Of a stretch of DNA of 64,000 nucleotides, positions 36,201 through 47,887 are shown one piece after another. The position numbers and the translations under genes were made by a program. The first letter of the stretch is position 1. Each line of letters starts with the position of its first letter. Under the pieces are notes generated by a model. It saw only the letters and a program-made list of their open reading frames with translations, was not told the DNA's origin and did no database searches. The stretch is taken from assembly GCF_001548475.1 (NCBI RefSeq), contig NZ_LRUJ01000004.1, positions 124,001 through 188,000 on the forward strand, read 5' to 3'. Source of the DNA: Bordetella hinzii LMG 13501. GTDB lineage: Bacteria; Pseudomonadota; Gammaproteobacteria; Burkholderiales; Burkholderiaceae_B.

Positions 36201-37184
36201 CTAGCCCAGGGCTTGCTTCAAGGCGGCCTGCCCCGCCAGGCCGAAGGGGTTGCCGAGGGTTTCGACGATTTCGATATGGTTGTACTCGGGGCCGCTGATC
36301 ACCTCCACCGCATGGCCGGCCCGCGCGACCGCCGCGCCGAAATCCCGGGTCTGCCGGATGAACTCCGGCGTCTCCAGCATGCCATGCACCAGCACCAGCG
36401 GCGTCTGCAGCCGCTTCAGGTGCCGCTGCGGGCTCAGCGCCTCCTCGACCGCGTCGTCGAAGGCGACATAGCTGCTGCGGGAGGACAGCCTGACCGGCTT
36501 GAGGTCGTAGAGCCCGCTGACCAGGACCGCGCCCTTGACGATATTGCCGGGCAGGCCGAACTCGGCCTCCCAATCGGTGGTCAGGGCCACGCCGGCCAGA
36601 TGGGCCCCGGACGAATGCGCCGACAGGTAGATCCGCTGCGGATCTCCGCCAAAGGACTTGGCGTTGCGGTACACCCAGGCGATGGACTGCTTGACCTGCT
36701 GGGCCATGGGCACCAGGCTGCCGCCGGCCTGCAAGACATTGATGAAATCGGGCGCCACGTAATGCATGCCGTGGGCCACGAAGTTCTCCGCCATGAAGCC
36801 CCATTGGGCGGCCGAGGAACCGCGCCAGGCGCCGCCATGGATGAAAATATGCACCGGCGCGCCCTGCGGCTTGGCGGCGGTCAGCTCCAGGGTTTCATAG
36901 GCACCCGGCCCGTAGGCGATCTTGCGCGGCGCGCCGATGCGGCGGCGCGCCACCTCGGTATTGGTTTCGCAGCGCGCGATGAGGGTTTCGATATTGGGCG
37001 CCCAGGCGGCCTGGTCATACGCCTTGTCCAAGGCCGCCTGGTCCATATCCCTCCAGACGGCTTTTCCCTTGACGGCCGGCGGGTTGGCCCGCAGCGGGCC
37101 GGCCAAGGCGGCGCCGGCCCGCGCGGCGCCGGCGGCCAGAAAGGTGCGGCGGGCGGGCCCGCTCCCGGTGAGGCTGTTCTTCAT
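36201..37184 (-). CDS. Tat-exported alpha/beta hydrolase, arylformamidase-like
   Basis: The 327-residue protein starts with a twin-arginine-type signal (ARRTFLAAGAARAGAALA), unusual for this family. The hydrolase core has the oxyanion motif HGGAWRG, the nucleophile in SAHSSGAHLA (Ser of HSSG) and a late His in EYNHIEIV. It belongs with the BD-FAE/kynurenine-formamidase-like esterases. It lies 35 nt downstream of a second hydrolase of the same family. Expected activity: ester or aryl-amide hydrolysis in the periplasm. Confidence 0.8.
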   Translation of the reverse strand: MKNSLTGSGPARRTFLAAGAARAGAALAGPLRANPPAVKGKAVWRDMDQAALDKAYDQAAWAPNIETLIARCETNTEVARRRIGAPRKIAYGPGAYETLELTAAKPQGAPVHIFIHGGAWRGSSAAQWGFMAENFVAHGMHYVAPDFINVLQAGGSLVPMAQQVKQSIAWVYRNAKSFGGDPQRIYLSAHSSGAHLAGVALTTDWEAEFGLPGNIVKGAVLVSGLYDLKPVRLSSRSSYVAFDDAVEEALSPQRHLKRLQTPLVLVHGMLETPEFIRQTRDFGAAVARAGHAVEVISGPEYNHIEIVETLGNPFGLAGQAALKQALG

Positions 37185-37219
37185 GTGTATCCCCTTGCTG
37201 TTATGCATGAAATTTACAT

Positions 37220-38083
37220 TCAGCGTTTGACGCTGTTCGCGATCCATTCCGTCAACGGATGGTCGGCTTGCTCGAAGCCATAGATGGCATCGAAATGATT
37301 CCGGCCCGCCTGGCACAGGGTCTGGGCCCGGTTGCCGGCTTCGCCCCAGGCCTGGACAAAGGCCTGCGACTGCCGGGCGAATTCAGCGGGTTCCTCGCTG
37401 CCCCAGGACACGAGAATCGGCGTCTGGCAGGGGCGCACGCTGTGCTGCGGGGAGTTTCTCCGGATGACCCCGTCGTCGATCTGCAGCATGGGCTGGATCG
37501 CCGACCAGCGGAATGGCGCGATCTCGAACACCCCGCTGACCATCACCGCCGCGGCCAGCGGATCCCTGGGCAACCCGTACTCCCCTTCCCAATCCGTCTG
37601 CAGGCACATGGCCGTCAGGTGGCCGCCCGCCGAATGGCCGCCGAGGACGACGCGCCCGGGATCCCCGCCAAAGCGCGCGATATTGCGCAGCACCCAGGCC
37701 ACGGCGGCGCGCGATTGGCGCGTGATCTCGTCGATGCCCACCTTCGGGCAGAGCGAGTAATTGACAACGACGGTGGTAAAGCCCCGGGCGCCAAGGCCTT
37801 GCGCGACGGTGGAGAATTCCTTGCTGCTGAGAATGCGCCAGGCGCCTCCATGGAGAAAGACAAACACCGGCGCCCCGGCTTGCGCCGCGGGAAAGATGTC
37901 GAGGGTTTCGTCCAGCGTCGGTCCGTAGGGGACATCGAGCTGCGCCGGCAGGCGCTTCCTGGCGTTCTCGCTTTCCTGCACATAATGTTGGGCGTAGATC
38001 CGGAAATCCGGAACGGACCTCTCGACGTCGTATTGCGCGTCGATCTCTTCCTGCGTCGTGAACCCGCGATACAAATAGGGCAT
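37220..38083 (-). CDS. Alpha/beta hydrolase, arylformamidase-like
   Basis: The 287-residue cytoplasmic protein has HGGAWRI, the nucleophile elbow GGHSAGGHLTA and a late GRNHFDAIYGF, with an Asp around PILVSWGSEE replaced by Glu. These are the marks of kynurenine-formamidase-like (BD-FAE) hydrolases. The N-terminal YDVERSVPDFRIYAQHYV is also typical of that group. It sits 38 nt after the metallo-hydrolase gene. Given the 2-aminophenol operon upstream, N-acylated or N-formylated 2-aminophenols are possible substrates. Confidence 0.83.
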   Translation of the reverse strand: MPYLYRGFTTQEEIDAQYDVERSVPDFRIYAQHYVQESENARKRLPAQLDVPYGPTLDETLDIFPAAQAGAPVFVFLHGGAWRILSSKEFSTVAQGLGARGFTTVVVNYSLCPKVGIDEITRQSRAAVAWVLRNIARFGGDPGRVVLGGHSAGGHLTAMCLQTDWEGEYGLPRDPLAAAVMVSGVFEIAPFRWSAIQPMLQIDDGVIRRNSPQHSVRPCQTPILVSWGSEEPAEFARQSQAFVQAWGEAGNRAQTLCQAGRNHFDAIYGFEQADHPLTEWIANSVKR

Positions 38084-38121
38084 AGGCTCTCCTGGGCGTG
38101 ATGGCGATAATCGGATTGGCT

Positions 38122-39039
38122 TCAGATGAAGTGCTGCTTCTTGCCGTTGGCGTCCGGACGCCTTGAGGTATCGTCCTGCCGCAGATTGATCTCCGCGATC
38201 TGGTTGCCGCTGGGCGCAGTCCAGGTCGCGTGCCGCTTCCACAGCTCCGCGTCATGGCCCGGTATGACGCGGTCCGTCTTGCCCTTCAGCACTTCCCGCA
38301 TCTGCCGATAGACTTTTATCTGGTTGAAGGCATTGCCCTGGTGGTAGCCTGGCGGCCACATATGCTCGATGTTGGAATACCAATAGGCGATGTCTCCGGC
38401 CACGATGAAGGGGCCATTGGCCGTGCTGACCTCGAACCACTGCGAACCGAAGGTATGGCTGTCCTTCGCGAGCCTGGCCGTCACGCCCGGCAAGATCTCC
38501 TCGTCGCCGCGCACGAACTTCACCCGCCCTTCCGAGACGCCCTGAGCCGCCCGCATGAGGTCCACCGGATCGAATGACGAAAACACCCATTCCTTTTCCT
38601 GCGCGGTCTCATGCTGGTGCACGGCGCAAACCGCGTCCGACCACCCCGTGTACTCATCCAGCTGGATGTAGAGCTTGGCGTTCGGAAAGGCCTCGAAATT
38701 CCCCATATGGTCGAAATGCATATGGGTCACCAGAATGGTTTCCACATCTTCCGGCGCGAAGCCCAGGCGGCCGAGCACATCCTTGGGCTCCTCCCAGCTG
38801 GAAAAGGCATAGCGCGTCAGCCAATGGTTGTTCTGGAAGCCGCAATCCACCAGCGCCACATGCCGCTTGCCGCCGACCTCCCCGCCGACCAGCAGGGTGT
38901 AGATCATCGGGCTGATGCTATTGCCGGCATTGGAATAAATGCCCGCGCCGCCGAAGAAATCCTGGGCCATGTCCACCTGGCAATAGGCCACCGACCATAT
39001 CGACCAGTCAGTCTTTCTGGAAAGCACTTGATCTTGCAT
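38122..39039 (-). CDS. AHL-lactonase-family metallo-beta-lactamase-fold hydrolase
   Basis: The 305-residue protein has the full two-metal site: HMHFDH (residues 106-111), a His in KDSHTFGSQ, Asp in VAGDIAYWYSN and His in IPGHDAEL. Size and sequence fit the AttM/AiiB-like lactonase family. Members of this family, including fungal MBL1 and bacterial lactonase-like enzymes, open the cyclic carbamate of benzoxazolinones to 2-aminophenols. A 2-aminophenol degradation operon is just upstream on the same strand, so that role is plausible. Quorum quenching remains the alternative. Confidence 0.85.
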   Translation of the reverse strand: MQDQVLSRKTDWSIWSVAYCQVDMAQDFFGGAGIYSNAGNSISPMIYTLLVGGEVGGKRHVALVDCGFQNNHWLTRYAFSSWEEPKDVLGRLGFAPEDVETILVTHMHFDHMGNFEAFPNAKLYIQLDEYTGWSDAVCAVHQHETAQEKEWVFSSFDPVDLMRAAQGVSEGRVKFVRGDEEILPGVTARLAKDSHTFGSQWFEVSTANGPFIVAGDIAYWYSNIEHMWPPGYHQGNAFNQIKVYRQMREVLKGKTDRVIPGHDAELWKRHATWTAPSGNQIAEINLRQDDTSRRPDANGKKQHFI

Positions 39040-47165: not shown

Positions 47166-47197
47166 ATATAAGACGTATGCGTACTATCTTATGGCAA
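47166..47197 (-). promoter_or_regulatory. Promoter and dyad of the aminophenol operon
   Basis: On the minus strand TTGCCA (47192-47197) and TCTTAT (47168-47173) with an 18-nt spacer could be -35 and -10. ATAAGA (47168-47173) and TCTTAT (47187-47192) form an inverted repeat spanning the same stretch, a likely repressor site for the divergent MarR-type protein. Confidence 0.5.
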
Positions 47198-47278
47198 GGG
47201 AGCCGGCCATGAAACATGGTATTTACCCTTTATATGGTTTCCCTATGTTTTTTCTGGGCTTCTCTCAGGCTAGCACTA

Positions 47279-47305
47279 TGTACGTACACATGCTATTGTA
47301 ACAAT
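47279..47305. promoter_or_regulatory. Palindromes before the MarR gene
   Basis: TGTACGTACA (47279-47288) is a perfect 10-nt palindrome and ATTGT-A-ACAAT (47295-47305) a perfect 5-1-5 dyad. Both lie just upstream of the MarR start codon in the otherwise AT-rich 198-bp gap. They are candidate autoregulatory sites of a MarR dimer. Confidence 0.45.
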
Positions 47306-47323
47306 GCTGGATCCCAGCGTAAT

Positions 47324-47887
47324 ATGCCCACTAGCCCAAGGAACAAGCTCAGCACGATGCCCCGTACCCGTTCAGCCCGCCCCGAACGTCCGCCTGCCTC
47401 GCCCGCGAAGCTCGCCCCGGAAGTGCACGCCTTATTGCAGAATTTCCGGCTCGAAGACGTGCCGTCCCATCTGCTGCGGCGCGCCCATTTCAAGGCCGAG
47501 GAAATCTTCGCCAACACCTTCTCCGGCGAAAGCGTCACGCCCAGGCAAAAGGCGGCCCTGATCCTGCTCTATCAAGATCCGGGACTGAGCCAGAACTCCC
47601 TGGCCGAACGCCTGGCCATGGACCGCAACACCGTCGCCGAGATGGTCAAGCGCATGCATCACGGCGGCCTGATCGAGCGCCGGCCATCGCCGACGGACGC
47701 GCGCGCCTACCAGCTCTATGTGGCGCCGGCCGGCGTGGCGCTGCTGTCGCGCATCATGCCGCGCGACGTCGCGGTCGAGGACGAGCTGCTGGCCCGCCTG
47801 CCCGAGGAATACCGGGGGCTCTTCGTGAAATGCCTGCGCCTGATCGCCGACGACCGCGGCGAGACGCAGCGGCCCCATGCCGACTGA
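47324..47887 (+). CDS. MarR-family regulator, probable repressor of the aminophenol operon
   Basis: From ATG 47324 the protein has 187 residues. The winged helix is clear (LSQNSLAERLAMDRNTVAEM, KRMHHGGLIERRPSPTDARA), within the MarR all-helical dimer fold. A second ATG at 47357 is possible; neither has an ideal ribosome site, and the stretch before it reads as noncoding. It is divergent from the RidA-amnBA operon across a gap with three dyads, the standard layout for MarR repressors of aromatic catabolism. Confidence 0.85.
   Translation: MPTSPRNKLSTMPRTRSARPERPPASPAKLAPEVHALLQNFRLEDVPSHLLRRAHFKAEEIFANTFSGESVTPRQKAALILLYQDPGLSQNSLAERLAMDRNTVAEMVKRMHHGGLIERRPSPTDARAYQLYVAPAGVALLSRIMPRDVAVEDELLARLPEEYRGLFVKCLRLIADDRGETQRPHAD

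Follow-up and report, generated by a model that had tools for sequence, protein, structure and literature searches.

The amn operon of Burkholderia xenovorans LB400, as described in the main text of PMC3790839, has the gene order amnRJBACDFEHG, a divergent gene for a MarR-type regulator and a palindrome upstream of amnJ. Hydrolysis of benzoxazolinones has been described elsewhere: BxdA converts 6-methoxy-2-benzoxazolinone (MBOA) in vitro, and Sphingobium with a triple bxdA deletion no longer uses MBOA, results said in PMC11297187 to hold largely for 2-benzoxazolinone (BOA) as well; CbaA of Pigmentiphaga DL-8 acts on a benzoxazolinone (PMC11297187), and MBL1 of Fusarium is needed for the breakdown of BOA (PMC4726666, available part). 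For an actinobacterial microcompartment pathway, the upstream source of 2-aminophenol (or catechol) is called unknown, and likelier natural than industrial, in the available part of PMC10470539. A 64,000-nucleotide stretch of Bordetella hinzii LMG 13501 (assembly GCF_001548475.1, contig NZ_LRUJ01000004.1, positions 124,001–188,000 of the forward strand; the window) carries an amn operon with the same order, regulator and palindrome as that of LB400. Unlike the LB400 operon, for which the word 'hydrolase' is absent from the main text of PMC3790839, it is accompanied by genes for a metallo-β-lactamase-fold hydrolase and two serine hydrolases. The pairing of metallo-hydrolase and amn genes recurs in other proteobacteria, and with a probability of roughly 0.6 the locus is a self-contained catabolic unit in which the first step is ring opening of a bicyclic precursor (most probably BOA or a simple relative of it) by the metallo-hydrolase.

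Six other records, of alpha-, beta- and gammaproteobacterial origin, contain close relatives of the metallo-hydrolase with 62–80% identity, and amnA to amnH lie nearby in all seven records of this clade, the window included. The other six (loci are cited by L numbers, genomes by G numbers) are Pseudomonas poae (L005), Burkholderia sp. BCC0506 (L006), B. cenocepacia (L009), a Telmatospirillum metagenome-assembled genome (L007), a proteobacterial metagenome-assembled genome (L008) and a Novosphingobium humi plasmid (L010 and L044); the two Burkholderia hydrolases are identical over 299 residues. The position of the hydrolase gene varies: it follows amnG in the window and in P. poae, precedes amnJ in both Burkholderia loci, lies inside the operon between other amn genes on one strand in L007, is divergent from the amn genes in L008, where it follows a TonB receptor gene, and is found 7.5 kb after amnG in N. 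humi. The stretch fetched for L008 ends inside amnG; directly past that point, on the same contig and strand, come amnE (59%) and amnD (64%), the latter as a separate gene. Selection for joint function tends to produce this pattern, in which the order of the genes changes and their company does not. The observation holds up, and a functional tie between hydrolase and operon, put forward as an inference in a preliminary description of this DNA, is supported by this comparison of loci. A metallo-hydrolase joined to an amn operon was not found described among the literature matches listed, most subscription papers lying outside the search; each half represents known chemistry, and the recurring combination may be new.

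The relatives were collected by a scan of genome contigs with near-exact peptide patterns, which gave four clade members among 20 stretches, and from a plasmid collection, in which two records exceeded 60% identity to the hydrolase and 294 others fell below. Seven plasmid records with relatives of 21–34% identity were viewed and had no annotated amn gene in the stretches seen; no relative was confirmed in the viral contigs scanned, and a megablast of 34200–50200 against plasmids gave no record covering 80%. In a sample of the phylum, amnB (E up to 1e-90) is present in four of 398 genomes and the hydrolase clade (E up to 1e-60) in two, both of which are amnB-positive. These two are the window's own genome and G782, which has the same DNA as L005, so this co-occurrence test is small and lacks independence from the seven records. 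Across the family, amnB occurs in 25 of 268 genomes. Matches to the hydrolase were present in one of 15 genomes in the genus (the window's own, E up to 1e-30), one of 298 in the genus of G782 and two of 300 in the order, namely that of the window and G180, the latter with a relative at about 44%.

The genes amnJBACDFEHG run on the reverse strand from 47125 to 39324 and form a complete 2-aminophenol operon (Table 1), bearing out the statement in the preliminary description that a full set of genes for meta cleavage of 2-aminophenol is present in one direction; all are in place, with matches to families or solved structures. AmnB and AmnA give near full-length matches to the solved 2-amino-5-chlorophenol (3vsg) and 2-aminophenol (8ihg) 1,6-dioxygenases, so that the two-subunit 2-aminophenol 1,6-dioxygenase by which an amn operon is recognized is encoded, and AmnC, AmnD, AmnF, AmnG and AmnH are all present; AmnE has the expected family as its best model but scores under the cut-off. 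Chance is not a concern for these identities, and by its gene content the part from amnR to amnG is an ordinary amn operon. A GTG at 47146 is a further possible start of amnJ besides the one chosen. Homologues of AmnR, with 62–76% identity, are encoded beside amnB in seven relatives' loci; their open frames range from 176–181 residues (L033, L034) to 221 (L031), which leaves the start of amnR uncertain. The palindrome between amnR and amnJ resembles a MarR operator, and matches of this kind were absent from 100 shuffled sequences. On the far side of amnR, a terminator-like hairpin (47922–47948) and genes named from sequence alone as groEL and groES (47973–49943, reverse strand) adjoin the locus.

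Table 1. Features of the amn and metallo-hydrolase locus; positions are those of the window
Feature	Positions	Strand	Evidence or remark
amnR, MarR-type regulator, divergent	47216..47887	+	PF01047/PF12802; start codon uncertain
MarR operator-like palindrome, between amnR and amnJ	47169..47186	.	2 mismatches to the amn consensus of PMC3790839
amnJ, Rid-family protein	46691..47125	-	PF01042; TIGR00004 70.8 bits, below cut-off 106
amnB, 2-aminophenol 1,6-dioxygenase subunit	45771..46694	-	3vsg_B E 4e-177, 8ihg_A E 1e-172
amnA, 2-aminophenol 1,6-dioxygenase alpha subunit	44929..45741	-	3vsg_A E 2e-110, 8ihg_B E 2e-100
amnC, 2-aminomuconate semialdehyde dehydrogenase	43403..44875	-	TIGR03216 865 bits, above cut-off 693
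amnD, 2-aminomuconate deaminase	42958..43407	-	solved 6izh E 3e-56
amnF, 2-keto-4-pentenoate hydratase	42131..42943	-	NF008461 373.6 bits, above cut-off 350
amnE, 4-oxalocrotonate decarboxylase	41370..42134	-	best model TIGR03218, 228 bits, below cut-off 351
amnH, acylating acetaldehyde dehydrogenase	40377..41315	-	TIGR03215 458 bits, above cut-off 282
amnG, 4-hydroxy-2-oxovalerate aldolase	39324..40361	-	TIGR03217 591 bits, above cut-off 286
tctC transporter-receptor remnant, last 41 codons and stop, rest gone	39155..39280	-	58–63% identity to C-terminal 41 residues of tctC in L033, L034, L036
metallo-β-lactamase-fold hydrolase, proposed benzoxazolinone (cyclic carbamate/lactone) hydrolase	38122..39039	-	PF00753
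abh1, BD-FAE/HSL-type serine hydrolase, no export signal evident	37220..38083	-	HGGAW and GHSAG motifs
abh2, related serine hydrolase, twin-arginine-like N-terminus	36201..37184	-	HGGAW and AHSSG motifs

A Pfam search of the metallo-hydrolase matched PF00753 alone, with no match to PF04199 (E up to 0.001 in both cases). This sets it apart from CbaA, which we take to be a metal hydrolase outside the metallo-β-lactamase superfamily, PF04199-like with a QxxxQxDxxxH motif. The seven metal ligands (His106, His108, Asp110, His111, His195, Asp216 and His262) are identical in all seven clade members in the alignment. The dinuclear HxHxDH~H~D~H site is thus complete, as the preliminary description had noted in calling the protein an AttM-family lactonase; the same site is present in every other homologue aligned and is therefore not diagnostic of N-acyl homoserine lactone (AHL) lactonases. 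The family name did not survive comparison with curated cut-offs, the hydrolase scoring 54.0 bits for AttM against a cut-off of 390, which rules out this formal label. The corresponding values are 64.6/375 bits for AiiA, 63.9/325 for 4-pyridoxolactonase, 33.6/475 for AhlS, 33/360 for AidB and 23.4/425 for YtnP. The protein is far under every curated AHL-lactonase cut-off matched and fits none of those definitions, so that 'AttM family' is too narrow a name.

Identity is 80% to the P. poae DSM 14936 protein and 22% to AttM. In the tree, built without one very long branch of the first version (L003_par), the hydrolase clade stands apart from AttM; its deep placement is tentative, since AttM forms a long branch and support for the clade is 83/91. 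The nearest relative outside the clade (L040, 44% identity) lies in a cluster with a LigAB-type dioxygenase, amidohydrolases and a CobW protein, in which no match to an amn gene was found. The P. poae orthologue is letter for letter the protein of PDB entry 8x78 over 305 residues; that entry, released on 2025-02-26, bears the title 'Crystal Structure of N-Acyl Homoserine Lactone Lactonase from Pseudomonas poae'; no paper reporting the substrate of 8x78 was found among the matches listed. A first structure model from five close sequences was poor (pLDDT 38) and was left unused; a second, from a 23-row alignment (pLDDT 60, pTM 0.67), served mainly for reading PDB titles. After 8x78 its nearest folds are GcL, organophosphorus and methyl parathion hydrolases, AiiA and 4-pyridoxolactonase, all within a narrow range of Z (about 18–20). 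The hydrolase could on this evidence be an AHL lactonase acting in quorum quenching, with no metabolic link to the adjoining amn genes, as the title of 8x78, these nearest folds and an HxHxDH site with Asp216-x-x-Tyr219 as in AttM would all allow. The low scores for AiiA, AttM and 4-pyridoxolactonase and the distance from AttM in identity argue otherwise, and such a role leaves the pairing with amn genes in seven of seven records unexplained, making it improbable.

BOA is a plausible substrate and the best candidate, because its hydrolysis followed by loss of CO2 would give 2-aminophenol directly and because BxdA and MBL1, of the same superfamily, act on benzoxazolinones. To our knowledge, it is the only common natural ring compound that gives 2-aminophenol by a single hydrolysis. 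Water activated by the two-metal centre would attack the carbamate carbonyl of BOA, and the resulting 2-hydroxyphenylcarbamate would lose CO2 to yield 2-aminophenol; this chemistry follows the proposal made for BxdA in the available part of PMC11297187, where the intermediate is likewise unconfirmed. By homology, AmnBA would then open the ring, AmnC would oxidize the semialdehyde, AmnD, perhaps with AmnJ, would remove ammonia, and AmnE, AmnF, AmnG and AmnH would carry the product on to pyruvate and acetyl-CoA. Repression of the operon by AmnR probably takes place at the palindrome ahead of amnJ. Acylated or esterified 2-aminophenols would enter the pathway through the two serine hydrolases, of which one is probably exported.

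By description, the BxdA proteins of Microbacterium and Sphingobium resemble the window hydrolase in being of about 34 kDa, annotated in the N-acyl homoserine lactonase family and active on benzoxazolinones, with a proposed route through aminophenols (PMC11297187, available part). The same text reports bxdA-like genes in Burkholderia and Pseudomonas and gives a similarity of about 60% or more to BxdA of Microbacterium LMB2 for BxdA-type genes. One difference from the window is that PMC11297187 does not describe the bxd cluster as an amn operon, the words 'dioxygenase' and 'catechol' being absent from the main text. MBL1, from the FDB1 cluster of F. verticillioides, is described as a metallo-β-lactamase with an HxHxDHxG motif encoded alongside amidase and dienelactone-hydrolase genes; this system differs in being fungal and in that BOA ends as the malonamic acid N-(2-hydroxyphenyl)malonamic acid (HPMA) (PMC4726666, available part). 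The P. poae protein of 8x78, with 80% identity and a gene that likewise accompanies amn genes, differs in its name, 'N-acyl homoserine lactone lactonase'.

Several points weigh against the proposal of a benzoxazolinone-degrading unit. Numerous amn clusters manage without a hydrolase of this kind: in none of 14 amn loci lacking it was there a match to the window hydrolase or to a relative at 33% (E up to 1e-6). These 14 loci are from 16 fetched, L040 being excluded for want of an amn match and L041 as cut by a contig end, and they represent 13 genomes, as L031 and L066 are both from G319. Divergent clade members, perhaps in other settings, would have been missed by the near-exact peptide scan. 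BxdA is compared by description only, the name under which 8x78 was deposited leans the other way, and the wider family may act on other lactones, because the 44% relative in L040 sits in a cluster without an amn match. Lastly, amnG and the hydrolase gene are set apart by a gap that holds part of another gene, which makes a single transcript less than certain. BOA as the substrate is put forward as a good hypothesis.

Some of the same points bear on whether the 2-aminophenol (or substituted aminophenol) that the hydrolase supplies to the amn pathway might instead come from another precursor, for instance a benzoxazinone lactam, a cyclic imide or a phenolic ester, with BOA as a side substrate at best. 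The pairing with amn genes tells more about the product than about the substrate; a different type of hydrolase stands beside amnBA in eight of the 14 loci without the metallo-hydrolase, so that several precursors may feed the pathway; and the 44% relative belongs to a different ring-cleavage cluster. The apparent lack of any other common natural source of 2-aminophenol by one hydrolysis, together with the benzoxazolinone precedents within the superfamily, makes this rather unlikely. A role within the pathway, in which the hydrolase clears a lactone derived from a ring-cleavage intermediate and makes no 2-aminophenol, might be suggested by its location inside the operon in L007 and by the LigAB-type dioxygenase that neighbours the 44% relative. 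However, the cluster of LB400, cells of which degrade 2-aminophenol, is described with ten genes, none named hydrolase, in the available part of PMC3790839 (the LB400 genome itself was not searched), and the side product described in the available part of PMC10470539 is picolinate and not a lactone; such a role is very improbable.

The gap between amnG and the hydrolase gene is 284 bp and holds the tctC remnant. In L033, L034 and L036 tctC comes after the amn and hydrolase genes. Since the gap keeps a tctC 3' end like that of tctC genes in amn clusters, an ancestor probably had amn followed by tctC, most of which was lost when the present arrangement arose, and the broken gene points to rearrangement. 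We infer co-transcription of the hydrolase gene with the amn genes. A σ70 promoter scan of 36000–48000 found none, with 1.7 expected, and Rfam gave no hit at gathering score over 35500–50200.

The serine hydrolase genes abh1 and abh2 follow the metallo-hydrolase gene with gaps of about 35–40 bases (for the starts chosen), and two serine hydrolases also flank the metallo-hydrolase in P. poae. An RRxFL N-terminus is common to Abh2 and its P. poae counterpart, suggesting that Abh2 is probably exported. The best solved relatives of both proteins are lipases and esterases; kynurenine formamidase 4e11 ranks fourth for Abh1 (E 2.8e-13) and eighth for Abh2 (E 1.1e-4), and the HGG oxyanion and serine nucleophile motifs are common to many esterases. 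They are better called BD-FAE/HSL type than arylformamidase-like, the term used previously, which is too specific. L036 has a counterpart of abh1, with 84% identity, next to amnD; on its other side come a second hydrolase gene and then tctC. BD-FAE-type serine hydrolases stand beside amnBA in L033, L034, L035, L036, L039, L062, L064 and L065, the eight loci mentioned above, in several of which tctC is next to or near them. From these few loci, abh1 gives the impression of an older companion of the amn genes, the metallo-hydrolase that of a more recent or optional addition. The recurrence of similar enzymes beside amnBA where the metallo-hydrolase is absent means that abh1 and abh2 were rejected as proof of N-acyl substrates; they may act on acylated aminophenols, with action on ring-cleavage products as an alternative. 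No match to amnC was found in L039, L064 and L065, whose pathway may take a hydrolytic branch or start from an acylated substrate.

If the metallo-hydrolase does act on BOA, detoxification of a cereal defence compound would be joined to its full use as carbon and nitrogen, which might avoid the aminophenoxazinone build-up seen in BxdA strains, and the name of the solved structure 8x78 may mislead. The hydrolase clade offers a testable answer on the source of 2-aminophenol for proteobacterial amn operons. It is a tentative extension, falling somewhat short of even odds, that a benzoxazolinone-to-acetyl-CoA unit of metallo-hydrolase and amn genes has been assembled or passed on in alpha-, beta- and gammaproteobacteria, that benzoxazinoids are among the natural sources from which amn operons receive 2-aminophenol, that 8x78 is a benzoxazolinone hydrolase and that in two lineages a molybdenum reductase (of BisC type after amnG in L009, a fusion protein in N. 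humi) could first strip the N-hydroxyl of hydroxamic-acid benzoxazinoids.

The molybdenum oxidoreductase of L009 (24242–26557) belongs to the BisC family at 929 bits, below the TIGR00509 cut-off of 1018, and its gene lies about 27 bases after amnG; that of N. humi (L010, 128–3385) is a fusion of molybdenum, flavin adenine dinucleotide (FAD) and 2Fe2S parts within the cluster. Reduction of N-hydroxylated precursors is a possible role for both. Possible uptake genes accompany several of the clusters (L044, 12543–14111; L008, 7536–9938; L010, 8625–11030; L005, 8008–8925) and encode a cytosine/purine-type permease, TonB receptors and a Phenol_MetA_deg protein. Three of the amn/hydrolase loci have an IclR regulator fused to a Rid deaminase domain in one open reading frame (L007, 8555–9931, forward strand; L008, 5772–6968, reverse; L044, 14915–16012, reverse); it seems unusual for a regulator to carry an enzyme domain of pathway type. 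N. humi has a second amnBA pair (L044, 18741–20479) about 6.6 kb from the first.

Elsewhere in the window, 10521–11537 on the reverse strand encodes a PF04199 cyclase-type hydrolase of 338 residues with a QxxxQxDxxxH motif, presumably that of the benzoxazolinone hydrolase CbaA. It is one of four PF04199 matches in the genome and as a pointer to BOA is therefore undiagnostic.

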